Shown here one piece after another: positions 48,364-64,000 of a DNA stretch of 64,000 bases. The DNA is from Chitinophagales bacterium. GTDB taxonomy: Bacteria; Bacteroidota; Bacteroidia; Chitinophagales; UBA10324. The position numbers and the translations under genes are program-made. Under the pieces are notes generated by a model that made no database searches, was not told the origin of the DNA, and saw only the letters and a program-made list of their open reading frames with translations. How positions within the stretch are numbered: the stretch's first letter is position 1; every line of letters begins with the position of its first letter. The stretch is taken from contig JANWXQ010000094.1 of NCBI GenBank assembly GCA_025057275.1, positions 1-64,000 on the forward strand. The letters run 5' to 3'.

Positions 48364-48792
48364 TCAGCTTCCGGCTATGTATTGCTCCAGGTGTTGGATG
48401 GTGGATTGCTGCTCTTCTATAACGGCCTTAACCACATCGCCGATGGAAATAAGACCCACCAGTTTTCCGTTTTCCATCACCGGCAAATGGCGAATGGCAT
48501 TGTTGGTCATCAGCTTCATGCAATCCGAGGTATCGTGGTCGGGCGTTACGGTAATCAGGTCGGTTACCATAACGTCGCGAATCAGGCTATCGGCTGATGT
48601 CTTGCCTTTCAACACGATTTTACGGGCGTAGTCGCGTTCGGTGAAGATGCCTACTGCCGTTTCCCCTTCCATAACCAGGACGCCGCCGATGTTACGTTCG
48701 GCCATTTTTTTCAGGGCATCCAGCACGGTAGAGGCCGGCGTAACCGACACTACTTCGTTTCCCTTTCGCCGTAATATCTCACGAACCTTCAT
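48364..48792 (-). CDS. Two-CBS-domain protein
   Basis: A 142-residue cytosolic protein made only of a CBS pair: KVREILRRKGNEVVSVTPASTVLDALKKMAERNIGGVLVMEGETAVGIFTERDYARK (first) and VMVTDLITVTPDHDTSDCMKLMTNNAIRHLPVMENGKLVGLISIGDVVKAVI (second). Such stand-alone Bateman modules bind adenosine nucleotides or SAM and regulate partner enzymes. The partner is unknown; it sits between the SDR gene of the polysaccharide operon and ST1, 51 bases from the former. Role in sensing PAPS/PAP or energy state is possible but speculative. Confidence 0.9.
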   Translation of the reverse strand: MKVREILRRKGNEVVSVTPASTVLDALKKMAERNIGGVLVMEGETAVGIFTERDYARKIVLKGKTSADSLIRDVMVTDLITVTPDHDTSDCMKLMTNNAIRHLPVMENGKLVGLISIGDVVKAVIEEQQSTIQHLEQYIAGS

Positions 48793-48843: not shown

Positions 48844-49833
48844 TCAGGAAGGCTGGCCTTTCGCTTTCTGCTGCAGGTAGGCAAACATATCGCCCACCGT
48901 TTGCTCCAGGCTGTAGCGCTGTTGCCATCCGGTTCGGGCTTTCAGGCGGGAACTGTCGCCCACAATAACGGGCTCGTCGCTGGGGCGCAACAGGTCAGCA
49001 TCTTCCACCACAGCCAGTTTCAGGCCGGTAACGTGCTCAATGATTGGAATCAGCTCGGCAATCTGGTAAATGCGTTCGCCGCTTACGTTGTACACCTCCC
49101 CGGCTTCGCCCCGTTCGGCAAGCAACAGCAGGGCTGAAACCAGATCGCGCACGTCGGTAATAGCACGCCGGGTGTTGAGGTTACCCACCCGAAAGTGGTT
49201 GGCAGCTCCGCTGCGGATGGCAAATGCGCGACTTACAAAATCGCTGACCACATCGTTGGTTTTGCGCGGTCCGGTTGTGTTGAAAATGCGCACGCGCACG
49301 CAACGGATGCCGAAGTTTTTCCAGTACTGAAAAGCCAGCAGATCCTGGCCCACCTTGCTGACGCCGTAGGGATGCAGCGGCAACAGGGGAGCCTCTTCCC
49401 TGATGGGCAGGTTTTCGGCAGTGAGCGATGCGCCGTATTCGGCACTGCTGCAGGCCACCACCACCATAGGGTCATAGGCCGGATCATGCTCGCGCAGGCG
49501 ACGAACTGCTTCAAACACATGCACCGTGCCGTTCACATTGATGTGAATGGTTTCTGCCGGTTTTTGCCAGGAGACGGTAGGATAACTCTGCGCCGCCAGA
49601 TGATAAATCACCGATGGCCGGTGGCGAAGCAGACTATCGGCCACCGCTTTGGCATCCGTTACGTCCAGCGGTTCGGTAACGCACCGTCCGGTCAGATCCG
49701 CCAAATCAATGGTGGGGTTATGCCACGTGCCAATGATTTGATCAGCGGGCATCTGCTGGTGAAGGGCTTCCGCCAGATGGGAGCCTACCATGCCCGCCGT
49801 ACCGGTAATCCACACCTTATGACTGCCGTTCAT
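48844..49833 (-). CDS. rmd: GDP-6-deoxy-4-ketohexose reductase-like SDR
   Basis: A 329-residue extended SDR, starting at the ATG at 49833. Motifs: VWITGTAGMVGSHLAEAL (cofactor), YHLAAQSYPTVSW, CSSAEYGASL, YGVSKVGQDLLAFQYW (catalytic YxxxK) and RIFNTTGPRKTNDVVSDFV. This pattern is that of GDP-4-dehydro-6-deoxymannose reductase (Rmd) and the related GDP-mannose 4,6-dehydratase; the length and the FNTTGPRK stretch favour Rmd, giving GDP-D-rhamnose. No separate Gmd is in the window. It is the last gene of the sulfotransferase operon, overlapping the preceding GT4 gene by 17 bases, so it probably supplies a deoxyhexose to the polysaccharide. Confidence 0.85.
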   Translation of the reverse strand: MNGSHKVWITGTAGMVGSHLAEALHQQMPADQIIGTWHNPTIDLADLTGRCVTEPLDVTDAKAVADSLLRHRPSVIYHLAAQSYPTVSWQKPAETIHINVNGTVHVFEAVRRLREHDPAYDPMVVVACSSAEYGASLTAENLPIREEAPLLPLHPYGVSKVGQDLLAFQYWKNFGIRCVRVRIFNTTGPRKTNDVVSDFVSRAFAIRSGAANHFRVGNLNTRRAITDVRDLVSALLLLAERGEAGEVYNVSGERIYQIAELIPIIEHVTGLKLAVVEDADLLRPSDEPVIVGDSSRLKARTGWQQRYSLEQTVGDMFAYLQQKAKGQPS

Positions 49834-51004
49834 GCAACGCTTTGTGATAAACTTCCATGACCTGGCTACCGATTTGATTCCAGGAAAAACGCTGTTCGGC
49901 AGTCTGGTGTGCCCGTTCGCGAAGCTGCTGCAGCCGGACATCATCATCCAACACTTCCAGAATGCGTTCGGCCAGGTGAACGGCATCTTCATTACGAAAC
50001 AGCAGGCCGTTGTCGTTATCGGTGATGATGTTGCGAAAGGCGGACAGATCGGAAGCAACAATAGCTGCTCCGTAATCCAAAGAACGAACCATCACGCCAC
50101 TGCTGTAGATTTCGCGATAAGGCAGCACCACCAGATCAGCAGCGGCATAGTAAACGGGGATGTCCTCGTTGGGAATATAGGCATAATTAAAGGTGCAGGA
50201 AGATTCCAGTTGCTTTTCCCGGACGATCCGATCAAAGATTTCCTGCTCCACCTTCCAGGGCCTGCCTACCACTACCAGATGAGCGCGGGGGTTGCGCTGA
50301 CGCACGATCGCCCAGGCGTTCAGAAGCACATCCAGCCCCTTGACTTTCTTGATTTGACCGAAAAACAAAACAATACGCGCATCGAGCGGCAAATGCAGTT
50401 GCCGACGGGCCTCTTGCGGCAACAGGGGTCTTTTGAAAAGAAAGTCGGCATCGCCGTGGGGCACTACATGAATGCGATCGGGAGGGTACCCTTTGAAATG
50501 CCTGAGCACCGATTGCCGGGCATAATCGCTGTGCACGATAATACGATCCAGACGACTCATAAATGCGCCGTGATGGGAATGCTTCGGCTGCTGGCCATAA
50601 GTTTCAAAATTCTCCACATCGTGAATGGTGGCTACAATACGAAAGCCGCGCATGCGAAACAGCAGCAGGTTCAGCAATTCCCGCGAAGCGAAATGATAAA
50701 TGTGCAGATGAGCCAGCTGCAACCGGTTGCGTACGGCATGGGTAACGGTTCGCCAGGAGCCCAGCACGTAGCGCATGCCACGCAGCCATTTGGGGTCGGT
50801 TCCGTAAATGCGACGAAAAGGCTTTTCCGTGGCAAAGGGAAAGGCAAACCGTTGATCCAACGTGGTTTCGTCGCAGGTGTAGAACACCAGTCGGGCACCT
50901 TGTTCGGCCAGGGCTTTGCACAGTCCGAAATCATAAAAATCGTTGCCGCTGTGCCCGCCGATGGGCTCCACCATGGCCACGGCTATCTTACCGTTGTGCA
51001 GCAT
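49817..51004 (-). CDS. GT4 family glycosyltransferase
   Basis: A 395-residue GT-B glycosyltransferase from the ATG at 51004 (MLHNGKIAVAMVEPIGGHSG). The N-terminal domain carries HSGNDFYDFGLCKAL; the C-terminal donor domain has VLFFGQIKKVKGLDVLLNAW and the E-x7-E-type retaining motif region LPYREIYSSGVMVRSLDYG. It is predicted cytosolic or membrane-peripheral and adds a sugar to a lipid-linked repeat unit. The upstream extension to 51097 lacks similarity and overlaps ST2. It overlaps both neighbours (ST2 and Rmd) by 17 bases, so it is translationally coupled within the polysaccharide operon. Confidence 0.92.
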   Translation of the reverse strand: MLHNGKIAVAMVEPIGGHSGNDFYDFGLCKALAEQGARLVFYTCDETTLDQRFAFPFATEKPFRRIYGTDPKWLRGMRYVLGSWRTVTHAVRNRLQLAHLHIYHFASRELLNLLLFRMRGFRIVATIHDVENFETYGQQPKHSHHGAFMSRLDRIIVHSDYARQSVLRHFKGYPPDRIHVVPHGDADFLFKRPLLPQEARRQLHLPLDARIVLFFGQIKKVKGLDVLLNAWAIVRQRNPRAHLVVVGRPWKVEQEIFDRIVREKQLESSCTFNYAYIPNEDIPVYYAAADLVVLPYREIYSSGVMVRSLDYGAAIVASDLSAFRNIITDNDNGLLFRNEDAVHLAERILEVLDDDVRLQQLRERAHQTAEQRFSWNQIGSQVMEVYHKALHERQS

Positions 51005-51878
51005 TCCAGACGGATAGATTTTTCTGCAATAACTTCTCCAGCATGGCCACGTCGTCACGATAAATGCGCTGCAGCTCATCCAACACCTCCTGGCCAACCT
51101 CCGGCATCCGCTTACTGGTCAGCACCCATCGTTTTACGCGGCTGACGGCCCCGGCAGGCATGAGCGTACGGGCCATTTGCCTGAGCACCTTCTGTCCATA
51201 CAGTACATGCATCACTTTATTGCGCGGCAGGGAAAACGGATTGTGCCGCTCATTGGGATCCGGCAGATAGGACGGACTTAAATGAAGAAAACGATACAAT
51301 TCAAGAAGACCCTCATGAACTTGTTCCACCCATTCCTCGTAAATGAAAATTTTTACCTGTTCACTCGGAAAAGTTTCCAGGTAACGTTTGACCTGCTGAT
51401 AATAAAGACCCAGCTCCACATACTGCTGATACCACAGGGCCGCGCGCTTGTGCCGTGTTTTACGAAAAACCACATCGGCCAGCGGCACATTCACGTATCC
51501 CAGCTTGTACTCCATGAAGTAATGCGACAAAGCGCGCTCCACAGGATTACGCAGGGAAATAATAATTCGGGCGTGAGGTATTTTTTGGCGGATGCGTTGT
51601 GGTACAGATGGGTAAAACAGATAGGCCACGCTGGCTTCGCCTACCGCTTTGTAACTGCCATTGGCGCCGGCAAACAACTGCACATATTTTTCCCAGTCTC
51701 CAATGCCCTTCTCCTTATGATACAGATTTTGCGCCAAGGTATCCTGATAACAGAAGTAGTTGGGTTCTTTCACCGGCGACATGAACACTTCCGGATGGCG
51801 ACACAAATAATGATACAGCGAAGTGGTTCCCGCTTTGGGAGCACCGACGATAAAAAAATCAGGAAGCCGTGGGTTCAT
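50988..51878 (-). CDS. Carbohydrate sulfotransferase (ST2)
   Basis: A 296-residue heparan/chondroitin-type sulfotransferase. The phosphosulfate loop FIVGAPKAGTTSLYHYL (9-25), the motif HPEVFMSPVKEPNYF after it, and the 3'-phosphate site IISLRNPVERALSHYFM are complete, and it ends with LLQKNLSVW, the family's conserved tail. It would transfer sulfate from PAPS to a sugar hydroxyl or amine; the position is unknown. It overlaps ST3 by 20 bases and the GT4 gene by 17, so it is a core member of the polysaccharide operon. Confidence 0.92.
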   Translation of the reverse strand: MNPRLPDFFIVGAPKAGTTSLYHYLCRHPEVFMSPVKEPNYFCYQDTLAQNLYHKEKGIGDWEKYVQLFAGANGSYKAVGEASVAYLFYPSVPQRIRQKIPHARIIISLRNPVERALSHYFMEYKLGYVNVPLADVVFRKTRHKRAALWYQQYVELGLYYQQVKRYLETFPSEQVKIFIYEEWVEQVHEGLLELYRFLHLSPSYLPDPNERHNPFSLPRNKVMHVLYGQKVLRQMARTLMPAGAVSRVKRWVLTSKRMPEVGQEVLDELQRIYRDDVAMLEKLLQKNLSVWNAAQR

Positions 51879-52809
51879 ATGCCGATCGGGTTAACCATTC
51901 CGGCCAACGGCTAATTCCGTGCTGCTGCAGCAGGGCAACCAAACGGGCGTTGTAGGGCCGGTAAATTTCTTCCAGCCATTGCCGGTCCTCCTCTCTGAGT
52001 CGCTCGCGTTTTCCTTCCACAGTATTGACCTGCTTATACCACCTGCGCAAAGTTCGTTTCAGAGCCACATTCTTTCTCCAGAACGATTCAAACTTTTTGT
52101 TCACAGCCAACAGACTTCGATGCAGCCAGCCTGAGCGCACAGCTGTAGTTTGATTTTCTATCACAAAGTCCTCAGGACGATAGACGGAAAAATCCAGCTC
52201 CAGCCACTGACACAATTCCTGCATAAAGGCCGGCGTGTCGTTGCGCAGGTCTTCAAAGAAAAGCAGCCGCAGGCGATTGCCGTAGCGCTCCAACCAGGGG
52301 GGCAGGTAATCGGCATAAAAACCTTCGCTGATACCGCGGCGCAGCAGCGATTCCGTATCCTCCTCGCGCAGGCCTTTCGGTTCCTGCCCGCAGCGCTGCA
52401 GCGACAATTCAGCAAAGCGGCGAAAGGTCATGTCCTGCGGCAGATAGGCATTTACCTTCTTGCGTTCATAGAAAGAAAACAGCCGCTCCGCAGGATTGCG
52501 CAACAAAATCAGGATACGCACTTCGCGTCCCAGCAGCTCTTCCAGCGCGGCAGCAATGACTGATCCGCCGTACAAATAACTGGGACTGGCTTCGAGCCGG
52601 TATTTCGCCTGCGGCTTGCAATGGTTCCAGTAGGCAGCATACACGGAAGCGTCGGGCAAGGGCAGCCCGTAACGCAGCGGCATGAAATAACCGATTTCCT
52701 TAATGGATGAACCGCAGACCTGGGGATGCAGCGACAGGTAGGTAAAAACAGATGTGGTTCCGGCTTTGTGCACACCGGCAATAATCAGATTCGGAAGCTG
52801 CTGACCCAT
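51859..52809 (-). CDS. Carbohydrate sulfotransferase (ST3)
   Basis: A 316-residue sulfotransferase with loop LIIAGVHKAGTTSVFTYL (9-26), KEIGYFMPLRYG after it and LILLRNPAERLFSFYER for 3'-phosphate binding. The end LLQQHGISRWPEWL is more like eukaryotic heparan-sulfate enzymes (GISRWP) than the RDLSSWL tail of ST4-ST7, so it may use another acceptor position. Its start ATG shares a base with the stop codon of the Wzy-like gene (TGATG), the tightest coupling in the operon, and its end overlaps ST2 by 20 bases. Confidence 0.92.
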   Translation of the reverse strand: MGQQLPNLIIAGVHKAGTTSVFTYLSLHPQVCGSSIKEIGYFMPLRYGLPLPDASVYAAYWNHCKPQAKYRLEASPSYLYGGSVIAAALEELLGREVRILILLRNPAERLFSFYERKKVNAYLPQDMTFRRFAELSLQRCGQEPKGLREEDTESLLRRGISEGFYADYLPPWLERYGNRLRLLFFEDLRNDTPAFMQELCQWLELDFSVYRPEDFVIENQTTAVRSGWLHRSLLAVNKKFESFWRKNVALKRTLRRWYKQVNTVEGKRERLREEDRQWLEEIYRPYNARLVALLQQHGISRWPEWLTRSAYEPTAS

Positions 52810-54158
52810 CAGACAGTAAGCGGAGTTTTGTAGTGACGACCGTAATGCAGTTCGGCGAAATAGAAAAAGTAATGAATCCCTACGAAGGTTGCCGTCGTGG
52901 CGCTGCCCGGATCAAAAAAGCTGCCTCCCGTCGGTATGCCGCGAATAAATAGAAACAGGATGAAGTAGAGCACGGCCTGGTAAAAGCTTTCGTTGCGATG
53001 CAAGCGGACCCGCTGGTGGTTGCGTAAGGCAAACAGAAACAGCAACGACATGCCTACCAGCAGACCCAAAACGCCATACTGAAAGATCACACCAAAAATG
53101 CCCAGGTCTGAGGCGTAGAAGCGCAGAAAGTCCACCGGTATGCCCGGCCAGTCTGTATCCAGCTTGCCGTTGCCAAAAACCCATCCCAACGGATAGCGAT
53201 CCAGATACTTCATGGCAATCAATCCCTGCCGGATGCGGGCATCAGCCGATGCTTCTCCCGTTCGTTCGCCCATGACGGCCATAAAGGCATTGGTGTAGGT
53301 ATTGACAATGCGGTCCAGCACATCCGGATAAAACAAATACAGAGCCCCCACCAGCAAGCCCAGCGCCAAAACCGCCATAAACGAATAATAAATCAGCTTA
53401 TCGCGACTCATATGAAACAGGGAATATATGCCCACTGTAGCCAACAGCGACAGCGAAACCCCTCGTTTCTGATTGATAAAAAATATGTAGCTAAAAAATA
53501 TAAGGAAAAACAGACCGTAATGCAGCTTATTGGTTTTGATCAGACGCACATAGTAATAAATAGAAGCAAACAGAAAAAAGAAGATTTCAAATTCAAACTG
53601 GCAACCTCCCTTGGCTTCGTTGCAATACACAAACAAGGTGCCGGCAAACTGAGAAGGGTTGAGCGTAAAAATCATCAGCAGAAATACGGGAAGCTGAAAC
53701 CAGGCGCCGAACAACAAGGCATCGCGGATAATGGTTAAATCCAAAAACCGGATGCGGAGCAGGTAAAATACTATGAGTCCGTCCCACACCATGCCCCAGA
53801 ATTTATACGTGGTCATCCCGGTAAATATGGGCTGACCGTAGAAGAAATAAGGCGCCAGCCCGCCCTGAAGCATCATATAGGCATAAAGCAGAATGATAAC
53901 GAATTCGTAAACATTAAATCTTCCTTTATTGACCAGCAGGCGATTCAATACATAAAAAAGCCCAAAACCGATCTCCACAAAAAGTAAGGGCAGCCCAACG
54001 TACAGAAAGTAATATTGGGTGAGCGGCGTTTTGATCATCGTGCCAAACACCCGAACCATGATCAGATAGGCAACGAAGACTCTTAAAGCGCGGTAGGCAT
54101 CGGTAAGGGCAGAGTGCCCGGCCGGAAGCGGAACGGTCAGCTCATGTCTCGTGTGCAC
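52809..54158 (-). CDS. O-antigen polymerase/ligase-like membrane protein (Wzy-like)
   Basis: A 449-residue inner-membrane protein with about ten to twelve hydrophobic segments and a long periplasmic loop at about 290-350 containing GERTGEASADARIRQGLIAMKYLDRYPLGWVFGNG, the region where O-antigen ligases and polymerases carry catalytic charges. The motif RxGxxxxxAxxY is not conserved, so this is called from topology and context. It would polymerise or ligate lipid-linked repeats in the periplasm. It lies between a GT2 gene (overlap 22 bases) and ST3 (one shared base), supporting a Wzx/Wzy-type pathway. Confidence 0.75.
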   Translation of the reverse strand: MHTRHELTVPLPAGHSALTDAYRALRVFVAYLIMVRVFGTMIKTPLTQYYFLYVGLPLLFVEIGFGLFYVLNRLLVNKGRFNVYEFVIILLYAYMMLQGGLAPYFFYGQPIFTGMTTYKFWGMVWDGLIVFYLLRIRFLDLTIIRDALLFGAWFQLPVFLLMIFTLNPSQFAGTLFVYCNEAKGGCQFEFEIFFFLFASIYYYVRLIKTNKLHYGLFFLIFFSYIFFINQKRGVSLSLLATVGIYSLFHMSRDKLIYYSFMAVLALGLLVGALYLFYPDVLDRIVNTYTNAFMAVMGERTGEASADARIRQGLIAMKYLDRYPLGWVFGNGKLDTDWPGIPVDFLRFYASDLGIFGVIFQYGVLGLLVGMSLLFLFALRNHQRVRLHRNESFYQAVLYFILFLFIRGIPTGGSFFDPGSATTATFVGIHYFFYFAELHYGRHYKTPLTV

Positions 54159-55222
54159 GTTCGTTTTCCCGCAAGAATTTTTAGAATCAACACGGATTCC
54201 TGCACATTGCCTTCCGCCACGTTTTTGACGGCTTTAAGCAGCAACCGAAGAACCGGAGCGAAGATAAGGTAGGGGTAGTAATACCAGTAAAACAGCAGCC
54301 AGCCGCGGTACTTGCAACACATAAAGAACAAGGGCCGACGCCGGGCTTTGATTTCTTTTCCGGTAGTTACTCCCTGCTTGTGGTAGATGACGCTTTGCCA
54401 GGCATAGCCATGTTCCCAGCCTTTTCGTTTTCCGCGCACCTCCCAGTCCATTTCCTCGAAATACGCATAATACGCTTCATTCATCAGACCCACCTCGTTC
54501 AGAAATTCAGTGCGCACAAAGAGGCTGGCGCCATAGACGTAATCAAAAGCTACCCCGTCATGGTCGTACTGGCCCTTGTCGGGTTCGTTGAGGCCAAGGT
54601 GATAGCTCCATGTGGTCCACTTATTAAATTTTCCGCCAATCGCATTGATTTTGTCGGGCCAGCGGTACCAGCGCAGCTTGGATCCGATAATGCCTACCCG
54701 CCGGCCACTGCTGCGGTATTGCCGGTCTTTTTCCATCAGTTGCTGAAGCGCATCCGGCTCCAACGTCGTGTCGTTGTTTAGCAGCCAGACGAAGGCAGCA
54801 TCTCCGCGGGCCAGCGCCAGCCGCGAACCCACATTGTTGCCTCCGGCAAAACCAATGTCGCTACGTGCCTGAACAAATAACAACGGATACAAAAAAGCAC
54901 CCGTCTGTTGCTGTTGCTGATCCTGTTCAGGCCGGCCGCCCTGTTCTGCTTCTGCCACTTCATAATCTGCATAGGCGACCGGTTTGGCACACAGCGGATA
55001 AGTCAGGTGACGAATGGCATCAGGCGGGGTAAATTCCGGTGTCCATGCGCCCGCAGCCCATTGCCGGATCAGGTGCAACGACTGCGGCGTGTTGTTGTCC
55101 ACCACCACCACCTGAAAATTCCGGTAGGTCTGTTTGGCCAGACTCTCCATGGTTTCAATGGTGTTGAGGTGGCCGTTGAAATTGACCAGCACCACATAGA
55201 CCTTGCCCTCAGCGGACTTCAT
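54137..55222 (-). CDS. GT2 family glycosyltransferase
   Basis: A 361-residue inverting GT-A glycosyltransferase. It has the GT2 start VYVVLVNFNGHLNTIETMESL, VVVVDNNTP, a DXD-like acidic site in WLLNNDTTLEPDAL, and the acceptor region YAYFEEMDWEVRGKRKGW. A basic, hydrophobic C-terminal segment (about 300-340, RGWLLFYWYYYPYLIFAPVLRLLLK) suggests membrane attachment. It resembles rhamnosyltransferase-type GT2 proteins. It overlaps ST4 by four bases and the Wzy-like gene by 22. Confidence 0.93.
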   Translation of the reverse strand: MKSAEGKVYVVLVNFNGHLNTIETMESLAKQTYRNFQVVVVDNNTPQSLHLIRQWAAGAWTPEFTPPDAIRHLTYPLCAKPVAYADYEVAEAEQGGRPEQDQQQQQTGAFLYPLLFVQARSDIGFAGGNNVGSRLALARGDAAFVWLLNNDTTLEPDALQQLMEKDRQYRSSGRRVGIIGSKLRWYRWPDKINAIGGKFNKWTTWSYHLGLNEPDKGQYDHDGVAFDYVYGASLFVRTEFLNEVGLMNEAYYAYFEEMDWEVRGKRKGWEHGYAWQSVIYHKQGVTTGKEIKARRRPLFFMCCKYRGWLLFYWYYYPYLIFAPVLRLLLKAVKNVAEGNVQESVLILKILAGKRTCTRDMS

Positions 55223-56172
55223 GATTTTACCTCAAGCCATGCTGACAGGTCGCGGTCAATGAGACGCGACAGTTCACGAATGTCGTCAGCGAAAATTTCT
55301 ATCAGAAAGCGTCGTTCATCCGGCTGCAGGCGGGGCAGGTTTTTATCGGTAAACAGTGCAGTTTTTGCCCGCCTTCGCAGGGAGCGGGGCAAGGCCCCCT
55401 TAATCCAGTCGCGCATGCGCTTTTGCGTGTTGAGCAATTGTACGAGGCGGTTTCTGGGGATGAAGCTGGGATTGTACTTCCGGCCGAAATCAATAGCTAC
55501 CTGGTCATTGACGCCCAGAAAGCGAAACAAATCCTTCACGACCGCTTCTGCATTTTTCACAAAATCATCAAACAGATAAATGCGCACCCGATCGGCTGGA
55601 AAGGTGTCGAGATAGCGCTTAACCTGCCGGGCGTACTGGCCGATTTCGATGTACATGTTGCTGATGCCCCAGCCTTTTGGATTGCGTGCCATGTCCTTTT
55701 TCAGAGCCGTCATGAAATCGGCTGTTTCGTAGCCAATGCGCAGGTCCATCAGATAATGGCTGAAGGCGCGGTCGGCCGGGTTGCGCAGCATCATAATGAT
55801 CCGGGCATCGGGAAATTTCCTGCGAATGTTGGCTGCCGCTTCCGACGAATACAGGTAAGAGTTCGTTACTTCACCGATGGCCTTTTGGTTTTCGGCCAGG
55901 CGAAACAACTGCACATACTGATTCCAGTCCTGAACAAAGGCGTGAAAGATGCCTTCCTTCATGTCGCCCTGAAGCCAGCGGCTGAGGTCTTTGTTTAGGG
56001 AACGGGCATAATTGGGGCGGAAAGATGCCGGATCAATGTCGGTGCTGAAGTGGTGGGTTTCCTTTATCGGAGCCATATACACTTCCGGATGCTGCTTGAG
56101 GTACTCGTACAGCGAAGTGGTGCCGCTTTTTGCAGCACCTACGATAAAGAAGTTGGGAAGGTGTTCCGCCAT
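55219..56172 (-). CDS. Carbohydrate sulfotransferase (ST4)
   Basis: A 317-residue sulfotransferase from the ATG at 56172 (MAEHLPNFFIVG); the frame is open another 105 bases upstream without similarity. Loop FIVGAAKSGTTSLYEYL (9-25), KETHHFSTD, 3'-phosphate site IMMLRNPADRAFSHYLMD and the shared tail LIDRDLSAWLEV. A TATCTTCG near-consensus -7 element lies at 56185-56192, 12 bases ahead. It is 31 bases after ST5 and four bases overlapping GT2. Confidence 0.92.
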   Translation of the reverse strand: MAEHLPNFFIVGAAKSGTTSLYEYLKQHPEVYMAPIKETHHFSTDIDPASFRPNYARSLNKDLSRWLQGDMKEGIFHAFVQDWNQYVQLFRLAENQKAIGEVTNSYLYSSEAAANIRRKFPDARIIMMLRNPADRAFSHYLMDLRIGYETADFMTALKKDMARNPKGWGISNMYIEIGQYARQVKRYLDTFPADRVRIYLFDDFVKNAEAVVKDLFRFLGVNDQVAIDFGRKYNPSFIPRNRLVQLLNTQKRMRDWIKGALPRSLRRRAKTALFTDKNLPRLQPDERRFLIEIFADDIRELSRLIDRDLSAWLEVKS

Positions 56173-56203
56173 GTGAACCGGCGGCGAAGATAAGGCGGCA
56201 GGC

Positions 56204-57136
56204 TTAGCGCAGCCACGATGACAGGTCGCGCTGCAGCAAACCCTGCAGTTGTTCCACCTCCGTTCTGTAAACGTCAATGAGCTGGCGACGCAGGTCGGCA
56301 GGAAGCGTTTCCCGTTCCAGGTTGTGGCGATAAACGAGTGACTGAACCCGCAGGCGCAGGCGACGACGCAACGCAGCCGGCAGCAGACTGCCCAGCAATT
56401 CCTTCACCTTGTTCTTACGCTTGAGAAAACGATTTACCGCCAGAATGCGGGGTCTTCCGCTGACGTTCAGCTCACCGCCGGCATCCAGATTCACCGCGGG
56501 CAGTCCCAGAAATTCCTGAACCCGAAGCAACGTGGCAGCCGGATCGTTGCGCAGGTCATCAAACAGCAAAATGTGCACGTGCGGAAAGTGATCCCGATAG
56601 GCTTTTACCTGACGGTAATAAAACCCACGTTCCAGATAGGAATAATCAAAATGCCAGTTGTGCTCCCGTCGCCAGGCTTCCTGCTGCAGGGCCTCTTCAA
56701 AGGACAACGTTTCGGCCCCGTCGCGCACTTTGTGCATGTACTGCGAAAAAGCTCGCTCCACCGGATTTCGCAAAGCAATAACGATGCGCACCCCATCGGG
56801 GTCGGGATGCAGCCGACGAATGTTGGCTATGGTTTTTTCATAAAAAAACAAATAGGTAGTGGAGGATTCCCCGCGGTAGCGGCGTTGACATCCGGGAGCA
56901 AACAACTGCAGATAATCGGATTGACGGTTTACCAGAAAGCGGGGCTGTGTGATGAGGCGGCCGTTGTTAATGAACTGCAGCGGCTCGTCAGGCCAGGTAA
57001 AATATCCCGGTTCTTTTTTCGGACTCATGAATACATCCGGGTGCTGGGCCAGGGCATAATGAAGTGTGGTGGTGCCGCTTTTTGCAGCGCCTACAATGAG
57101 CAGATTGGGCCAGCAGGCTTCAGGATTGGGGTGCAT
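56204..57136 (-). CDS. Carbohydrate sulfotransferase (ST5)
   Basis: A 310-residue sulfotransferase. Loop LIVGAAKSGTTTLHYAL (12-28), KEPGYFTWPDEP, 3'-phosphate site VIALRNPVERAFSQYMH and tail LLQRDLSSWLR. It shares more motif identity with ST4 than with ST2 or ST3. Its start overlaps the end of ST6 by 17 bases, so it is coupled to it. The acceptor residue is unknown. Confidence 0.92.
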   Translation of the reverse strand: MHPNPEACWPNLLIVGAAKSGTTTLHYALAQHPDVFMSPKKEPGYFTWPDEPLQFINNGRLITQPRFLVNRQSDYLQLFAPGCQRRYRGESSTTYLFFYEKTIANIRRLHPDPDGVRIVIALRNPVERAFSQYMHKVRDGAETLSFEEALQQEAWRREHNWHFDYSYLERGFYYRQVKAYRDHFPHVHILLFDDLRNDPAATLLRVQEFLGLPAVNLDAGGELNVSGRPRILAVNRFLKRKNKVKELLGSLLPAALRRRLRLRVQSLVYRHNLERETLPADLRRQLIDVYRTEVEQLQGLLQRDLSSWLR

Positions 57137-58004
57137 ACCAACAGCTCAGGTCGCGGTCAATCAGTTGTTCAAGCCTTTTGATATCGGTCAAAAAGTACTG
57201 CTCAATCAGTTCTGCAGCCCGTTGCGGGCTGAGTTGCGGAGTGCGCGAAGGGGCAGTGTTCAATCGTTCGCCAGCCTGCTGTAATCTTCGGCGCAGCGAT
57301 CGTGGCAAAAGGACTGAGGCTGCGCTTCGGATCAGCCCCTTGCCGCGCATCAGCCTATGCAGCCAGGGAAGCCGGATGTCGGCTGCTTCGTTACGCCGGA
57401 TGTCCAGATTCAGGGGGCGCACCGGAACGTCCAGAAATTCCTGAATGCGACGGAAGGTAAGGCTGCGGTTACGGATCAAATCTTCTTCCATAATCAAAAA
57501 CAACATGTGATCTCGCGGGAACAACTTCAGAAACCGCTCGATCTGGCCTGCATAGTAGCCGCGGGCCAGGTAGCTGAACTGCAAACGCCGATCGCTATCC
57601 TGCTGCAACCGCTGCGGCTCGGCCTGAAGTGCTTCTTGGAAGGAAAGCGTTTCAAAGCCCCGGCGCCGGCTCATCAGGTAATGGGAATAGGCGCGTGTGG
57701 CCGGATGGCGCAACAGAAAAATCAGCTTGACGTTGCGGCCTAAGGTTTCGGCAATGCGTCCGGCCGCCGGCTCTTCAAACATCATGGCAGGATCCACCTC
57801 ACCCACCGCCTTTTGTCCGTTCCACTCACTGAAAAACTCCTGCTCGTACCATGCCGCACCCTTGGCGTAACGGTCAGCAAAAACAAAAAACTTGGTCTCC
57901 TTTACTTTCCGGGGCAGGAAGATATCGGGATGCTGACGCAGAATCTGATCCAGCGTGGTCGTGCCTGCCTTTTGCGCGCCGACGCACAGAAAATTAGGAA
58001 GCAT
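57120..58004 (-). CDS. Carbohydrate sulfotransferase (ST6)
   Basis: A 294-residue sulfotransferase from the ATG at 58004 (MLPNFLCVGAQKAGTTTL); the upstream in-frame ATG at 58061 would add 19 residues and read across a TATCTTCG element (58021-58028). Loop CVGAQKAGTTTLDQIL, KVKETKFFVFAD, 3'-phosphate site IFLLRHPATRAYSHYLM (H for N) and tail LIDRDLSCWYAP. The internal start 16 bases after the promoter-like element suggests it can be transcribed separately from the upstream flippase gene, 53 bases away. Confidence 0.92.
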   Translation of the reverse strand: MLPNFLCVGAQKAGTTTLDQILRQHPDIFLPRKVKETKFFVFADRYAKGAAWYEQEFFSEWNGQKAVGEVDPAMMFEEPAAGRIAETLGRNVKLIFLLRHPATRAYSHYLMSRRRGFETLSFQEALQAEPQRLQQDSDRRLQFSYLARGYYAGQIERFLKLFPRDHMLFLIMEEDLIRNRSLTFRRIQEFLDVPVRPLNLDIRRNEAADIRLPWLHRLMRGKGLIRSAASVLLPRSLRRRLQQAGERLNTAPSRTPQLSPQRAAELIEQYFLTDIKRLEQLIDRDLSCWYAPQS

Positions 58005-58057
58005 GAACGAAGCGGCGCTGCGAAGATAGCGGTGCGGGCGACACCGCCGGGCAAGCC

Positions 58058-59494
58058 TCATTCGCCCAGGCTGTTGGCATCGTCATCGGCATCTTCGGAT
58101 TTGCGCTTGCGGTCGCGACGCAAAGCCTCACGGATGTCCTGAAGCAATTGTTTGGGTCGGATGCGAAACAAATCGCGAACATCCAGCGTGTAGAACCCAT
58201 AAAATCGACGAATCAGAAAAAACGGAATGACATTAAGGATGAAAACACCCAGCGTGTTGACCAGGGCAGCGCCCAAAGCGCCCAAAACCGGAATGAGCCA
58301 TAGATTGAGCAGGATCGCCAGCACGGTGGTAGCTACCATTAGGTTTCGGTTCAGTTTCTGACGGCCGGTCATAATCAGAATGTTGCTTACCGGTCCGGTG
58401 GCGGCATTGATGAACTGTCCAAAAGCAAGCACCATAAGCACCGTGCTGCCGGCAACGAATTCTTTACCAAAAATGCCCATGATCAGCGGTGCAGCTAGGA
58501 TGATGACCAGCAGAATCGGAGCCGAGCACCAGAAAATGATTTTGGTAACGTATTGGGCTGAGCGTCTCAGTTCGTCCATTTTTCCCGCTGCGAACAACTC
58601 AGCAAACTTGGGCGCCGCAGGAATGAGCATCGCCACCAGGGCAATACGTGTAACGGTAGCTACCTTGAAGGCATTTCGGTAAATGCCCACCTCTTCCATG
58701 GAAGCGTAGCGCGAAAGAATGAGTGTGTCGGCATAACCGCGCACCAAAGAGGCCAGCGAAGCCACAAACAGCGAAATGCCGATCCAGAATTTTTCCCTGA
58801 AGCCAATGCCTTCCGACGGCCGGGCTTCCAGATAGTGGGAATAAACAATAAACCAATACAGACTGAGCAGAGCCGTCAGGGTGATAAAAGCGGTGTAGGT
58901 AACGACGACGATCTCCGGATCCCTGTTGGAAGAAAACAGCAGGATGCCGCCCAGGATCAGGATGCCAAAAAGAAAGTTACTTACATTGTGCAGGAAGGCA
59001 TAGTGACGGATTTTCTTCAGTCCGCGAATACCTCCGGTGGCAATCTGAAATACGGTAAGCGGCAGCAGGGCAAATGAGCCCATCCGGAAATAAGGCGCCA
59101 GCTCCGGCTTGGCAAAAATGCGGGCGGCGATCAGATCGGCTTCAAAGAAAATCAGAGCAGAAAGCCCAAGTGCCAGCGGAACAGACATTAAGAGATTTTT
59201 ATTAAACAAATCCTTAATGTTTCCCCATTGGCGCTGCATGAAATACTGAACGCCGAAGCGGGTCATCAGCGTGTCGGCTCCCAGCTTGGACAGGGTGCCA
59301 CTAAAATTCAGCACCGTCTGCACCAGGTTGTAGATGCCGGTGCCGGCGGCTCCCGTACTGCGGGCCACCATAACGGCAAACACCCAGTTGAAGACCATGC
59401 CCACCAAACGCAGCGAAAAAGCGGAAATGCCGCCGCGTATCAGTTCTTTCTGATGCGAATCGGAAGAAGGAGAGGGAGAAGCATCCTGCTTCAT
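58058..59494 (-). CDS. Oligosaccharide flippase (Wzx-like, MATE/MOP superfamily)
   Basis: A 478-residue inner-membrane protein with about 14 helices. The start ELIRGGISAFSLRLVGMVFNWVFAVMVAR and the pattern of paired helices match the polysaccharide biosynthesis (PST/Wzx) family, which moves lipid-linked repeats to the periplasm. A basic, charged C-terminal tail (about 445-478, ALRRDRKRKSEDADDDA) is cytosolic. In the operon it lies between ST7 and ST6, before the glycosyltransferases and Wzy-like protein, giving the full Wzx/Wzy set. Lipid-linked substrate is inferred. Confidence 0.93.
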   Translation of the reverse strand: MKQDASPSPSSDSHQKELIRGGISAFSLRLVGMVFNWVFAVMVARSTGAAGTGIYNLVQTVLNFSGTLSKLGADTLMTRFGVQYFMQRQWGNIKDLFNKNLLMSVPLALGLSALIFFEADLIAARIFAKPELAPYFRMGSFALLPLTVFQIATGGIRGLKKIRHYAFLHNVSNFLFGILILGGILLFSSNRDPEIVVVTYTAFITLTALLSLYWFIVYSHYLEARPSEGIGFREKFWIGISLFVASLASLVRGYADTLILSRYASMEEVGIYRNAFKVATVTRIALVAMLIPAAPKFAELFAAGKMDELRRSAQYVTKIIFWCSAPILLVIILAAPLIMGIFGKEFVAGSTVLMVLAFGQFINAATGPVSNILIMTGRQKLNRNLMVATTVLAILLNLWLIPVLGALGAALVNTLGVFILNVIPFFLIRRFYGFYTLDVRDLFRIRPKQLLQDIREALRRDRKRKSEDADDDANSLGE

Positions 59495-59521
59495 GCTGCA
59501 GCGGAGCGCACAAGATACAAC

Positions 59522-60412
59522 CTACTGCAGCCAACTGCTCAAATCACGACCGGTAAGCTGCTGCAACCGCAACACATCTGCCCGAAAATAGTCAACAAGC
59601 TGTCTGCGCGTTTCCGGATTCATGGGTTCGATCTGCTCCATAAAATTTCGGGTGAAGAATTCATGGGTACGCACTCCCCGACGCCGCCGGAAGAAAAACT
59701 TCAGTATGCGTTTGAATACATTATCCGACATGAGCAGCCATCGGATCAGGGGATTTTTCCAACGCCTGCCTCCTTTGTTCCAGACCTTGGAATAATCAAT
59801 GACTACATCAGAACGAAGACCCAGAAACTCGAAAACGCCCTTCAGCACCTTATCGGGATGTTGCCGGAATTCATCATACCACATAATGTGCACATGAGGG
59901 AAATGTTGGAGGTATGCCTGCACGGCATCGGCATACAGGCTCATACGCCGGTATTGCATGAACAGCGATTCGCCCTTTTGCCAGCGTTCCTCTTCCAGCT
60001 GCAAGGCCTCTTCAAACGAATACCGTTCGGCCGGGTTGTTGAGGTGAACAAAATTGTATGCCGAGTAGGCGCGTTCCACCGGATGCCTCAGAATCATCAT
60101 GATGCGCACTTCAGGACCCAGGTAGTGCAGGATGTTTTTTATCGCTTCCTCATAAAACAGCAAATACATCACGCTGGCCTCTCCGATGGCCTTTTTACCC
60201 GCTGCATTGGCAAACAGGCGGAAGTAAGCTTGTTCATCTTCCACCCATTTCTGAATGCGTCCGGCCACCTGGCGGGCAACAAAAAACTGCGGCTCCTTAA
60301 GCGACGGCATAAACACATCCGGATGCTGAATCAGGTAGTTGTACAGGGATCGCGTGGCGCTTTTGCCTGCGCCCACCAGAAGAAAATTGGGTTTAATCCG
60401 GTCGTTGCCCAT
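59522..60412 (-). CDS. Carbohydrate sulfotransferase (ST7) with variant phosphosulfate loop
   Basis: A 296-residue sulfotransferase. Overall layout is normal (KEPQFFVARQVAG, 3'-phosphate site MMILRHPVERAYSAYNF, tail LTGRDLSSWLQ), but the loop reads LLVGAGKSATRSLYNYL: the usual GTT is replaced by ATR. The lysine that contacts the bridging oxygen is kept. It may still bind PAPS with altered geometry, or use another donor or be non-catalytic. Its start overlaps the SGNH gene by 20 bases; the flippase follows after 27. Confidence 0.87.
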   Translation of the reverse strand: MGNDRIKPNFLLVGAGKSATRSLYNYLIQHPDVFMPSLKEPQFFVARQVAGRIQKWVEDEQAYFRLFANAAGKKAIGEASVMYLLFYEEAIKNILHYLGPEVRIMMILRHPVERAYSAYNFVHLNNPAERYSFEEALQLEEERWQKGESLFMQYRRMSLYADAVQAYLQHFPHVHIMWYDEFRQHPDKVLKGVFEFLGLRSDVVIDYSKVWNKGGRRWKNPLIRWLLMSDNVFKRILKFFFRRRRGVRTHEFFTRNFMEQIEPMNPETRRQLVDYFRADVLRLQQLTGRDLSSWLQ

Positions 60413-61517
60413 AGTGCTGATTCAGGTTCGGATAGTAGCGGCGCAAAATATCGCTGGCCAGCTGAGAAGAAAACAGCGTGGCTCCTTCCAGGTTCATGTG
60501 GTTGTCGTAGAAGTATTGAAGGTTCAGGTAAATGCTGTCCTGACTGTAGTCGCGGAAAGGCACTTCATAACGGGCACAAAGTTCCTGAACGGTTTGGTAG
60601 GAGGGCTCCATGCCAAACGGGGCCAGAGCCGGTGACATAACCACCATGACGGCTACCCCCCGGGATTTGAGCGACGTCATCATTTCCTCCAGCGCAGCCA
60701 CCTTATGTTTGTCCACCCGCTTTCCTTTCTGTTCGCGCAAGGCGGCATTCTGGCGGATCAGTTCCTGCGCCTTCTGTTCGGAGATCACTCCTTTCAGGGG
60801 TTTGAATCCTGCATGCGAGTGGCGTTTGCGGAATATTCCGGACAGGATATCCAGCGGCATAGAATTATACGGATAAATACCCGATAACATTTTAATCTTT
60901 TCCGTATTTATTGGAATGAGATATTCTTCCATGGCGTGCAGCCGGAACCAGAAGTTATCCCAGCTGTTATCGGATGGCTTGGCCGGCCTGACGCGCAGGG
61001 AACCGGGCTCCCAGTGGCCGTCCCGCACGCCACGCAGCAAGTATATGTCGCGAACTTCAGGATAGTCATGGTAATAGGGTGCCAGCACATTGAGGCGATC
61101 GTAATGCAGCTCACGGTAATAAAGCTCTTCCGGATTCAGATCAATAATTACCAGCCTGGGGGTGTAGCGGTTGAGCACACTGCGCACCACTGCCAGTTCG
61201 TAAAAAACCGTTTGCCCGTCGTGTCCGCCGTTGTATACGCGGAAACCCAAGGTGTCGGACAGAACCAGGGAGTTGTAGTTGCGCCTGCCGCGCGAGGAGC
61301 CGAGAATCAGTCCGTCGGCTTTCATGGCAGAAAACAAAAAGGTGGTTTCTGCATTGGGCCCAGCTTTCTGCCGGAAATACAAGTAGCGCAGAATCAGTCC
61401 ACCGATCTGGTCCAGCACAACTACTGCCAGCAACAGCAGCAGACCGTTGCGCAGCAGCCGGCGAAGGGCTTTACCGCCGGACCGCTCAGAACTGGAAGTA
61501 GATGAACTGGCTTGCAT
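60393..61517 (-). CDS. SGNH-fold protein, partner of an O-acyltransferase
   Basis: A 374-residue protein with an N-terminal membrane anchor (about 23-45) and a periplasmic SGNH-like domain. Block I is LILGSSRGRRNYNS (GSSR in place of GDS, candidate nucleophile S75) and block V is YDNHMNLEGA near the C-terminus, with the D-x-H pair of DltD/AlgX/AlgJ-type acyl acceptors. The order and coupling fit: its start overlaps the end of the MBOAT gene by 32 bases. Such pairs pass acetyl groups through the membrane and onto polysaccharide hydroxyls. Start taken at the ATG at 61517; a GTG nine bases upstream is in frame. Confidence 0.8.
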   Translation of the reverse strand: MQASSSTSSSERSGGKALRRLLRNGLLLLLAVVVLDQIGGLILRYLYFRQKAGPNAETTFLFSAMKADGLILGSSRGRRNYNSLVLSDTLGFRVYNGGHDGQTVFYELAVVRSVLNRYTPRLVIIDLNPEELYYRELHYDRLNVLAPYYHDYPEVRDIYLLRGVRDGHWEPGSLRVRPAKPSDNSWDNFWFRLHAMEEYLIPINTEKIKMLSGIYPYNSMPLDILSGIFRKRHSHAGFKPLKGVISEQKAQELIRQNAALREQKGKRVDKHKVAALEEMMTSLKSRGVAVMVVMSPALAPFGMEPSYQTVQELCARYEVPFRDYSQDSIYLNLQYFYDNHMNLEGATLFSSQLASDILRRYYPNLNQHYGQRPD

Positions 61518-62928
61518 CAAAAACACCCAGGGTTAAGATCACGGCAATGATGGTGGCATACCACAGGTATTTTCCCCAAACCGCCCGAGGTTCAGGGAAT
61601 ATGGCATCTTTTTGTTTGGCATAGTTCTCCTGCCATTCTTCCAGTGCAAACAAAGCCACAATGCCAAAAATGCCATACCACAATGTGGACGCATCGCCCT
61701 CGTAAAATTTCAGACTGGAGAAGCTGAACATCTGACTGTAGTAATACAGTGCATCGCTTACCGACCCGGACCGGAAAAACACATAGGAAAAAATACCGCA
61801 GTGAAAGGCCAGGATGGTGTTGACGATCCGGCCAAACAGCGGATGGATGGCGTACACCTGTTTATCAAACCATTCCAACTGGCGGCGCAGGATCAGGCGT
61901 GAAGCAAGGAACATAAAAAAGACAAGAAAACACAGCACGTACGTCCAGTTGGCCCCATGCCAGAGGCCGGCCAGAAACATGAGTACACCCAAATTGAAAA
62001 TGCCGCGCCACTTTCCCTTTCGGTAACCCCCCAGCGGGGTGAACACATAGTCGCGGAACCAGGTGGTCAGGGAAATATGCCAGCGCTGCCATACTTCCCC
62101 TACGGACTGGCCTAAGTACGGGCGGCGGAAATTGGTCATCAGCGTAAAGCCCATTACCCGCGCCGAGCCAATGGCAATCAGGCTGTAGCCACCGAAATCG
62201 CAATACAGCTGAATGGCAAAAAACCAGGCCGCCACCCAGAATGTAAGCGGTTCGCCATCGTGCGAACGCGGAAAGTTGAATACGTTAGACACGTAGGCGC
62301 CCAGTCTGTCGGCAATAACAACTTTCATGAACAGGCCCAGCAACATCATCTTCAGGCCGCTGACCATGCGATCATAATCCAGTTCGTGTTTTTCATAAAA
62401 CTGATGGATCAGGTTCTGCGGTCGTTCAATAGGGCCGGCCACGAGCTGAGGATAGAACATGACGTACAAGGCATAGATGCCGAAATCGCGCACCGGCTTG
62501 AAATTGCCCCGGTAAATCTCAATGGTGTAGCTCATGGCCTGAAAGGTGTGGAACGACAGGCCGATGGGTAGAATAATGTTAAGGTATTTCAAATCCGGTT
62601 GCAATCCCAGCCACTGACCGATAACATTGATGTTATCAATAAAGAAATTGTAATACTTAAACACAGCCAGCACCCCGACGTTGGCCACAATGCTCATGAG
62701 CAGATACAGCTTTCGCTTTTGGCCCTGGGCCTGATCAATCAGGATACCGGCGAAATAGTCAATGATGATGGTAAAAACGAGAATAAGGATGTAGATGGGA
62801 ATAAAAAACATGTAAAAGACGCAGCTGGCAATCAGCAAATGGAGCCAGCGCCACCGGTGGGGAAGCAAAAAATAGATGGTCGTAACCACCGGAAAGAATA
62901 CCAAAAACGCAAATGAATTAAAGACCAC
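61486..62928 (-). CDS. MBOAT family O-acyltransferase (AlgI/DltB-like)
   Basis: A 480-residue inner-membrane protein with about ten helices, starting at GTG (MVFNSFAFLVFFPVVTTIYFLLPHRWRW, the typical AlgI start). The catalytic histidine is H324 in FLAGLWHGANWTYVLCF, and the preceding RWHISLTTWFRDYVFTPLGGYRKG segment is the family's cytosolic funnel motif. It transfers acyl, probably acetyl, groups from a cytosolic donor to a periplasmic carrier or polysaccharide. It is the first gene of the polysaccharide operon; a TATATTTG -7 element lies 41 bases upstream. Acetylation of the sulfated polymer is inferred from gene context. Confidence 0.94.
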   Translation of the reverse strand: MVFNSFAFLVFFPVVTTIYFLLPHRWRWLHLLIASCVFYMFFIPIYILILVFTIIIDYFAGILIDQAQGQKRKLYLLMSIVANVGVLAVFKYYNFFIDNINVIGQWLGLQPDLKYLNIILPIGLSFHTFQAMSYTIEIYRGNFKPVRDFGIYALYVMFYPQLVAGPIERPQNLIHQFYEKHELDYDRMVSGLKMMLLGLFMKVVIADRLGAYVSNVFNFPRSHDGEPLTFWVAAWFFAIQLYCDFGGYSLIAIGSARVMGFTLMTNFRRPYLGQSVGEVWQRWHISLTTWFRDYVFTPLGGYRKGKWRGIFNLGVLMFLAGLWHGANWTYVLCFLVFFMFLASRLILRRQLEWFDKQVYAIHPLFGRIVNTILAFHCGIFSYVFFRSGSVSDALYYYSQMFSFSSLKFYEGDASTLWYGIFGIVALFALEEWQENYAKQKDAIFPEPRAVWGKYLWYATIIAVILTLGVFDASQFIYFQF

Positions 62929-63871: not shown

Positions 63872-63887
63872 GGGGAAAATATGCGGG

Positions 63888-63895
63888 CAAAAGTA
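63888..63895 (-). promoter_or_regulatory. -7 promoter element upstream of cysQ
   Basis: Minus-strand TACTTTTG matches TAnnTTTG exactly, 16 bases before the ATG at 63871, and separates cysQ from the gene end further upstream. Confidence 0.5.
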
Positions 63896-63910
63896 GGCTA
63901 CTGCCGGCAA

Positions 63911-64000
63911 CTACAGTTCGTTGTTGCGCAAGGGATTTCGCGCCAGCAATTCCACATACTCCCTCTGACGCATCGTTTCGTGCAAAACAAGGCAGGATGC
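63911..64000 (-). CDS. C-terminal end of an unidentified gene (partial)
   Basis: The minus strand reads open from the window edge for 29 codons to a TAG at 63911, ending LLARNPLRNNEL. The protein is not recognisable from this fragment. Because the PAP phosphatase and sulfotransferases follow, a sulfate-assimilation gene is possible, but nothing in the fragment shows it. Confidence 0.4.
   Translation of the reverse strand, partial: ASCLVLHETMRQREYVELLARNPLRNNEL

Follow-up and report, generated by a model that had tools for sequence, protein, structure and literature searches.

Few bacterial sulfated polysaccharides are genetically defined. The product of the synechan xss genes (Synechocystis PCC 6803, plasmid pSYSM) is proven to be sulfated; the cluster is of the Wzx/Wzy/PCP type and contains two sulfotransferases, one from each of two subfamilies, and eight glycosyltransferases (PMC8205485). 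No further bacterial exopolysaccharide (EPS) cluster with sulfotransferases was known to that 2021 paper. In Vibrio KMM 8419 and Cobetia marina KMM 1449, the capsule clusters combine sulfotransferases, three of them in Vibrio, with PAPS genes inside the cluster and export by an ABC transporter (PMC11641403, PMC11766843). Sulfate and acetyl groups are both present in the Vibrio polysaccharide (PMC11641403), and the Cobetia paper names CysQ (PMC11766843). A putative sulfated glycosaminoglycan (GAG) cluster of Pontiella sulfatireligans (Kiritimatiellae) has one sulfotransferase resembling GAG enzymes and eight glycosyltransferases, and a sulfated exopolymer was measured there (PMC7356697). In granular sludge, sulfated glycosaminoglycan-like polymers have been measured but their producers are not known (PMC7356697, PMC10483923). 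A search for sulfotransferase-dependent EPS of Chitinophaga yielded no paper in the literature collection covered.

We analysed a window of 64,000 nucleotides, the whole stretch of DNA under study, from a draft assembly of an uncultured member of the Chitinophagales (Bacteroidota). It contains a run of 13 open reading frames, all on the minus strand (48844-62928), which a sequence-only reading had described as tightly spaced genes including six for sulfotransferases. The coordinates match and Pfam identifies six Sulfotransfer_1/3 proteins, here named ST1 to ST6; the assignments as MBOAT, flippase (Polysacc_synt), GT2, GT4 and SDR are supported in the same way. The SGNH and Wzy-like proteins are without a Pfam match, and their AlphaFold models match DltD/SGNH hydrolases and WaaL/RodA/FtsW, respectively. 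We consider it likely (probability about 0.8) that these genes direct the synthesis and Wzx/Wzy/Wza-type export of a single surface polysaccharide, which is O-acylated and multiply sulfated, the six sulfotransferases being predicted to be position-specific. The genes of the locus and its flank are as follows.

C23:72459-73451, outside the window: UDP-xylose-synthase-like SDR
C23:71717-72316, outside the window: hexapeptide acetyltransferase
C23:70419-71720, outside the window: UDP-sugar dehydrogenase
C23:69319-70377, outside the window: RmlB
C23:68269-69267, outside the window: epimerase
C23:65820-68171, outside the window: Wza/SLBB protein
C23:64654-65802, outside the window: Wzz-like protein
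C23:63911-64657, minus strand: CpsB/CapC phosphatase; only 63911..64000 inside the window
63074..63910, minus strand: CysQ 3'(2'),5'-bisphosphate nucleotidase; TIGR01331, 292.7 bits (cut-off 228.8)
61486..62928, minus strand: MBOAT O-acyltransferase (AlgI/DltB type), 480 aa; PF03062, 4.9e-25
60393..61517, minus strand: SGNH/DltD-like acyl-transfer partner, model-based; no Pfam match
59522..60412, minus strand: sulfotransferase ST1; PF00685, 2.6e-11
58058..59494, minus strand: Wzx-type flippase; PF01943, 2.2e-19
57120..58004, minus strand: sulfotransferase ST2; PF00685, 1.9e-15
56204..57136, minus strand: sulfotransferase ST3; PF13469, 1.2e-15
55219..56172, minus strand: sulfotransferase ST4; PF13469, 8e-20
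54137..55222, minus strand: GT2 glycosyltransferase; PF00535, 9.4e-10
52809..54158, minus strand: putative Wzy-type polymerase, from fold and position; no Pfam match
51859..52809, minus strand: sulfotransferase ST5; PF00685, 3e-13
50988..51878, minus strand: sulfotransferase ST6; PF00685, 3.3e-15
49817..51004, minus strand: GT4 glycosyltransferase; PF00534, 4.5e-24
48844..49833, minus strand: SDR nucleotide-sugar dehydratase/epimerase; PF16363, 5e-53, no equivalog cut-off reached
48364..48792, minus strand: CBS-domain protein encoded between ST7 and the 22-gene locus, to which it may be unrelated; PF00571, 1.3e-26
47317..48321, minus strand: sulfotransferase ST7, of a different subfamily, linked downstream; PF13469, 4.8e-32

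With realistic start codons (ST2 at 58004, ST4 at 56172, GT4 at 51004, SDR at 49833), all junctions in the 13-gene run overlap or have a gap of at most 53 bases. The extent of 14 kb proposed earlier holds for this run, but not its start at 62928: the locus continues via cysQ beyond the window edge to about C23:73451. It comprises 22 genes in about 24.6 kb, the nine additional ones encoding the CysQ PAP phosphatase, CpsB, the Wzz-like and Wza-like proteins and five nucleotide-sugar enzymes. We infer a single transcript. A less probable arrangement, which still deserves consideration, divides the run into several transcription units and uncouples expression of the sulfotransferase half from that of the export half: a gap of about 145 bases precedes the MBOAT gene and about 142 bases separate the UXS-like and acetyltransferase genes, and in synechan the sulfotransferase genes are regulated separately from wzx/wzy (PMC8205485). 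The overlap or near-overlap of 13 genes argues against such a split, as does a terminator scan, which revealed no clear candidate in the gaps. Consensus scans for sigma-70 promoters and terminators gave counts near background and no clear transcription-unit signal.

Six of the nine sulfotransferases of the genome lie in the 13-gene run (P ~3e-9, assuming 2100 genes). Because of this value, and because the gene-for-gene arrangement is kept in other genera, the clustering is not due to chance. Tandem duplication or an annotation artefact was rejected, the six enzymes being only about 25-39% identical and each having its own cross-genus clade. There is no sign of a recently acquired island, as the GC content (0.50-0.56) is like that of the remaining window and the locus is common to the host's family. 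A viral origin was rejected after the Wzy protein matched nothing when viral contigs were scanned with it.

A cross-genome search showed the gene order to be kept across at least five genera. Synteny is gene-for-gene in four related genomes (G001, G003, G007, G008) and, on shorter contigs, in three more (G004, G009, G011). Each slot from ST1 to ST6 is a separate orthologous clade with 100% bootstrap, and comparison with a same-genus genome indicates purifying selection on the slots (synonymous sites near saturation, nonsynonymous pN 0.05-0.20). MBOAT is 60-94% identical among family members, and in relatives the Wzy-like protein remains inside the Wzx/GT2/sulfotransferase run. CysQ occupies the same position in G001, G003, G007, G008, G011, G006 and G012; the gene order outside the window is kept in G001 and G003 and partly in G007 and G012. 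ST7 is linked to the locus in G001, G003, G007, G008, G009 and G012, and the CBS-domain gene is conserved near ST7 in G001, G003, G007, G008 and G009. Order-level relatives carry 0, 1, 2, 4 or 6 sulfotransferases on related backbones. Entire sulfotransferase slots are missing from the reduced loci, where proteins of about 534 aa adjoining Wzy had no Pfam match. Outside the host's family the highest count was four, among 79 sampled loci, many of them on short contigs.

The nearest solved relatives of known function for ST1 to ST6 are heparan sulfate 3-O- and N-sulfotransferases: NDST for ST1 (2.6e-10) and ST5 (1.3e-9), 3-O-sulfotransferase 3A1 for ST2 (1.7e-15), 3-O-sulfotransferase 1 for ST3 (6e-10) and ST6 (9e-12), and by profile both NDST (8e-20) and 3-OST (1e-14) for ST4. 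All six share with these enzymes the PAPS 5'-phosphosulfate loop, the KE-motif glutamate, which in ST2 aligns to that of 3-OST-5, and the 3'-phosphate motif. The loop sequence of ST1, KSATR, departs from K(S/A)GTT and is kept in 7/7 orthologues. In contrast to the heparan sulfate enzymes, the bacterial proteins have no N-terminal anchor; their loop begins within the first 20 residues, too early for any signal peptide or anchor to precede it, and ST1 to ST6 are hence predicted to be cytosolic. Sequence identity to the heparan sulfate enzymes is low and leaves the acceptor unfixed. Synechan XssA, a proven sulfated-EPS enzyme, is homologous to ST1-ST4 and ST6 and is the best match of ST6 (25%, E 2e-26), while ST7 is the best match of XssE (E 1e-10). 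As in the xss cluster, there are sulfotransferases of two subfamilies, with six genes inside the polysaccharide cluster and one linked to it.

Contig C19 of the genome carries sat-cysC and two sulfate-permease-like transporters (CitMHS/Na_sulph_symp). Neither PAPS reductase nor sulfite reductase was found in this 99.4% complete genome, and PAPS reductase was likewise not found in G001 and G007. Since Sat, CysC and the transporters are present without these reductases, PAPS appears to serve sulfation only. CysQ, which clears PAP, the by-product of sulfation, is encoded in the locus itself.

Among the assembly genes, the flippase matches PF01943, and export and regulatory functions are represented by a Poly_export plus SLBB protein of 783 aa and by CpsB_CapC. 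Between them lies the Wzz-like protein of 382 aa with two hydrophobic ends and no Pfam or strong NCBIfam match. The initiating phosphoglycosyltransferase often lies within a capsule or EPS locus but may be encoded elsewhere; here there is none in the locus, and two PF02397 genes are on other contigs. With GT2 and GT4 as its only glycosyltransferases, the locus would give a repeat unit that is very short for six enzymes, unless genes elsewhere complete it. As to a hexosamine/uronate backbone, TviB- and TviC-like enzymes gave good matches below the equivalog cut-offs. The overlapping MBOAT and SGNH genes resemble AlgI/AlgJ and DltB/DltD pairs. MBOAT carries a GLWHG motif and reaches 132.8 bits against DltB TIGR04091, far under the cut-off of 375, so that D-alanylation by a DltB/DltD system was rejected. 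Its partner has one N-terminal membrane helix, a model matching DltD (E 4e-6) and SGNH hydrolases, and Ser75, Asp338 and His340 invariant in 9/9 aligned sequences. Such pairs can transfer acyl groups besides acetyl; acetyl is the probable group here.

The earlier proposal of a sulfated, exported polysaccharide is strengthened by the presence in this locus of genes for Wza, a Wzz-like protein, CpsB and CysQ, and by the PAPS gene complement, the heparan-type homology and the six slots conserved across genera. In the proposed pathway, the unlinked Sat and CysC would turn imported sulfate into PAPS, and locus enzymes would supply hexosaminuronate-type, 4-keto-6-deoxy and UDP-xylose-type nucleotide sugars. 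An unlinked initiating sugar transferase, GT2 and GT4 would build a lipid-linked repeat unit, which the six cytosolic enzymes would sulfate, one acceptor position each, with CysQ clearing PAP. Wzx would flip the sulfated unit; MBOAT would carry an acyl (probably acetyl) group through the membrane to the SGNH partner, by which the glycan would be esterified. Wzy would polymerise the units, and export by Wzz/Wza under CpsB control would yield a capsule or released EPS.

The polymer may bear fewer sulfates than there are enzymes, if these act successively, on alternative units or under differing conditions, giving moderate sulfation. We give this version real but lesser weight. In Vibrio KMM 8419 each disaccharide bears one sulfate, although the cluster has three sulfotransferases (PMC11641403), synechan drops little upon xssE removal (PMC8205485), and two glycosyltransferases would fit it as well; redundancy, however, would not be expected to maintain six parallel clades with intact motifs in at least five genera, nor does the loss of whole slots from reduced loci favour it. 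A cell-bound product (capsule or LPS O-antigen) instead of released EPS, with the Wzy-like protein possibly a ligase, is rather unlikely. The best match of the Wzy-like model (pLDDT 82.6) is indeed the O-antigen ligase WaaL (2.9e-4), followed by RodA and FtsW, and Wzy and WaaL have the same fold, which fits polymerase and ligase alike. Against this reading, Wza/SLBB and CpsB are typical for capsule/EPS export, and the gene is flanked by GT2 and sulfotransferase genes, the position expected of a polymerase gene. That the sulfotransferases act on lipids, proteins or small molecules beside unrelated polysaccharide genes is very improbable: PF13469 is functionally broad and ST7 is nearer to CurM/polyketide and protein-tyrosine sulfotransferases, but the solved relatives of ST1-ST6 with known function are glycan sulfotransferases only, and in related genomes the ST1-ST6 genes are interspersed with those for Wzx, GT2, Wzy and GT4.

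Compared with the synechan cluster, the multiply sulfated polysaccharide locus proposed here has six (seven with ST7) sulfotransferases to two glycosyltransferases, in Bacteroidota instead of Cyanobacteria, and an MBOAT/SGNH pair, CysQ and Wza, which the xss stretch as annotated lacks. The novelty lies in so many parallel sulfotransferases beside only two glycosyltransferases, in the lineage and in the natural series of 0/1/2/4/6 enzymes. A bacterial heparinoid, with a very short hexosaminuronate-containing repeat built by two or three glycosyltransferases and up to six positions sulfated by six dedicated enzymes of the heparan sulfate type, is a speculative extension that we rate as doubtful; if true, the relatives would form a natural series of sulfation density.

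With this locus, a lineage of Bacteroidota is identified whose conserved gene set for a probable sulfated polysaccharide is near-complete. In these genomes, lacking PAPS and sulfite reductases, PAPS supply would be a clean marker of sulfation. ST1 to ST6, prokaryotic relatives of the heparan sulfate sulfotransferases that each have orthologues across genera, can be tested singly for acceptor specificity, and little-known bacterial sulfated polysaccharides thereby become testable in a new, uncultured lineage of Bacteroidota.

The 13 minus-strand genes that the sequence-only reading had assigned to a polysaccharide operon at 48844-62928 are present as described. Pfam analysis confirmed the six sulfotransferases (PF00685/PF13469; here ST1-ST6, in order of transcription) and identified MBOAT, Polysacc_synt flippase, GT2, GT4 and SDR proteins. 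The Pfam search gave no support for the names of the SGNH and Wzy-like proteins in this run, although both were upheld by structure models. The SGNH model (pLDDT 77) resembles DltD (E 4e-6) as well as SGNH hydrolases, and all nine aligned sequences retain Ser75 and Asp338-x-His340; the Wzy model (pLDDT 83) matches WaaL, RodA and FtsW, a fold group common to polymerases and ligases and compatible with either role. An initiating sugar transferase is absent from the locus, and two PF02397 genes are located elsewhere in the genome. The window also contains many long antisense ORFs, e.g. 49832-51145 (plus strand, 437 aa, antisense to GT4), which seem to stem from codon composition and not to be genes.

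The proposed limits hold for the 13 genes but not for the run, which extends beyond 62928. The source genome (2.48 Mb, 108 contigs, 99.4% complete) carries the window as bases 1-64000 of contig C23, and same-strand genes continue upstream of MBOAT to C23:73451, before the divergent uvrB. The full locus thus spans about 24.6 kb and 22 genes, including its own outer-membrane exporter. The genes flanking the 13-gene run are, in chromosomal order:

47317-48321, minus strand: ST7, a linked seventh sulfotransferase of a different subfamily, downstream of the CBS gene
48364-48792, minus strand: CBS-domain protein between the locus and ST7, conserved there; could be a nucleotide sensor
First gene upstream of MBOAT, same strand: CysQ (TIGR01331, 293 bits, cut-off 229)
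Upstream of CysQ, same strand: CpsB/CapC
Upstream of CpsB/CapC, same strand: Wzz-like protein
Upstream of the Wzz-like gene, same strand: Wza (Poly_export/SLBB, 783 aa)
Upstream of Wza, same strand: TviC-like epimerase
Upstream of the epimerase, same strand: RmlB
Upstream of RmlB, same strand: TviB-like UDP-sugar dehydrogenase
Upstream of the dehydrogenase, same strand: hexapeptide acetyltransferase
Last gene of the run, ending at C23:73451, same strand: UDP-xylose-synthase-like SDR

In each of ST1-ST6 the PAPS loop lies in the N-terminal ~20 residues, and a KE-x-x-aromatic/His-F motif and an RxPxxRxxS 3'-phosphate motif are also present. With the loop so close to the N-terminus, neither a signal peptide nor an anchor would fit ahead of it, and sulfation is therefore most likely cytosolic, before flipping, as judged from these sequences. 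The glutamate of the KE motif, the catalytic base in 3-OST and NDST, aligns in ST2 with that of human 3-OST-5. By sequence, the closest solved structure is the bacterial sulfotransferase 3rnl, deposited without a substrate name, after which only heparan sulfate 3-O-sulfotransferases and NDST are found among the nearest. ST1 (59522-60412, minus strand) has the PAPS loop KSATR instead of K(S/A)GTT, as do 7/7 orthologues, perhaps reflecting a different donor geometry or acceptor. ST7 matches CurM-type and protein-tyrosine sulfotransferases, weakly.

A gene-order search revealed that the arrangement recurs in at least five genera. Four relatives (G001, of the same genus, G003, G007 and G008) share, gene for gene, the order CysQ-MBOAT-SGNH-ST1-Wzx-ST2-ST3-ST4-GT2-Wzy-ST5-ST6-GT4-SDR, except that in G007 one additional, divergently oriented gene separates CysQ from MBOAT; partial contigs of G004, G009 and G011 are consistent with it. 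Linkage of ST7 is kept across the family; in G003 and G008 other genes intervene, with ST7 still near. In a maximum-likelihood tree of 62 sulfotransferases every slot forms its own clade (100% ultrafast bootstrap), with ST7 apart. Comparison with G001 gave pN of 0.05-0.20 for every gene, sulfotransferases included, at synonymous sites near saturation (pS 0.69-0.81), indicating strong purifying selection on each. Mutual identity among the six is only ~25-39%. They are thus old enzymes, each maintained separately, rather than recent copies.

Of the order's 398 genomes, 33 matched the Wzy profile; they belong to three families. Around Wzy, ST1-6-type enzymes number six in five home-family genera, two in genus g6 and in G002, up to four in family f14, and one or none in family f19. 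These loci share related backbones and form a natural series. A genome-wide search using the ST4 profile found no locus with more than four such enzymes outside the family among 79 named loci, a sample rather than a census, with many short contigs. In the reduced loci, Wzy is flanked by ~534-aa proteins in g6 (L036:10723-12324, L149, L150; no Pfam match for the one protein examined) and by ~554- and 508-aa proteins in f19 (L157-L165), at positions held by sulfotransferases in six-enzyme loci.

Clusters for sulfated polysaccharides are already known as a kind. The proven model is synechan of Synechocystis, with two sulfotransferases, eight glycosyltransferases and a sugar:sulfate ratio of 8:2 (PMC8205485); XssA has homologues in ST6 (25%, E 2e-26) and other sulfotransferases of the locus, while XssE best matches ST7 (E 1e-10). 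Sulfated capsules of Vibrio and Cobetia likewise combine PAPS genes with sulfotransferases, but use ABC export (PMC11641403, PMC11766843). The Actinoplanes cluster has two sulfotransferases (PMC13390465), and Pontiella, which produces a sulfated GAG-like polymer, has a putative cluster with one such enzyme (PMC7356697). New here are the high number of sulfotransferases per glycosyltransferase, which is strictly conserved, the coupling of MBOAT to SGNH, a CysQ gene within the locus, and the lineage.

The best-supported model, export of an O-acylated, multiply sulfated surface polysaccharide via Wzx/Wzy/Wza, rests on gene content, order, conservation, motifs, fold matches and the PAPS gene complement; the chance estimate for clustering assumes ~2100 genes. 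We infer sulfation of the glycan itself, a separate acceptor position for each sulfotransferase, acetyl as the acyl group moved by MBOAT/SGNH, and transcription of the run as a single unit; the sugar identity of the polymer is likewise predicted. Vibrio counsels caution, as sulfotransferases there can outnumber sulfates (PMC11641403). Elsewhere in the source genome, a sulfotransferase directly adjoins a second Wzx-like flippase on contig C96 (L011:9754-12104), a candidate second, smaller sulfated-glycan locus, and another sulfotransferase lies at C27:74240-75046 (L012).

For PAPS supply, sat adjoins cysC on contig C19 (L015:3074-8800), near two tandem CitMHS/Na_sulph_symp-type (TrkA_C) transporters. 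A ~300-aa CysD-type match was found in none of the six-enzyme genomes and in most other relatives, so the former appear to use a Sat-type sulfurylase instead. PAPS_reduct (PF01507) and NIR_SIR (PF01077) had no match in the source genome; among control genomes they were detected in 14/14 and 11/14, respectively. Draft genomes may miss genes, but G001 and G007 (completeness at least 99% each), which both have CysC, likewise lack PAPS_reduct; CysH-sized matches occur in G003, G004 and G008. Sulfation would thus be the sole visible use of PAPS in at least three genomes. Lacking both PAPS reductase and sulfite/nitrite reductase, the source organism should, on its gene complement, require reduced sulfur and yet still activate sulfate.
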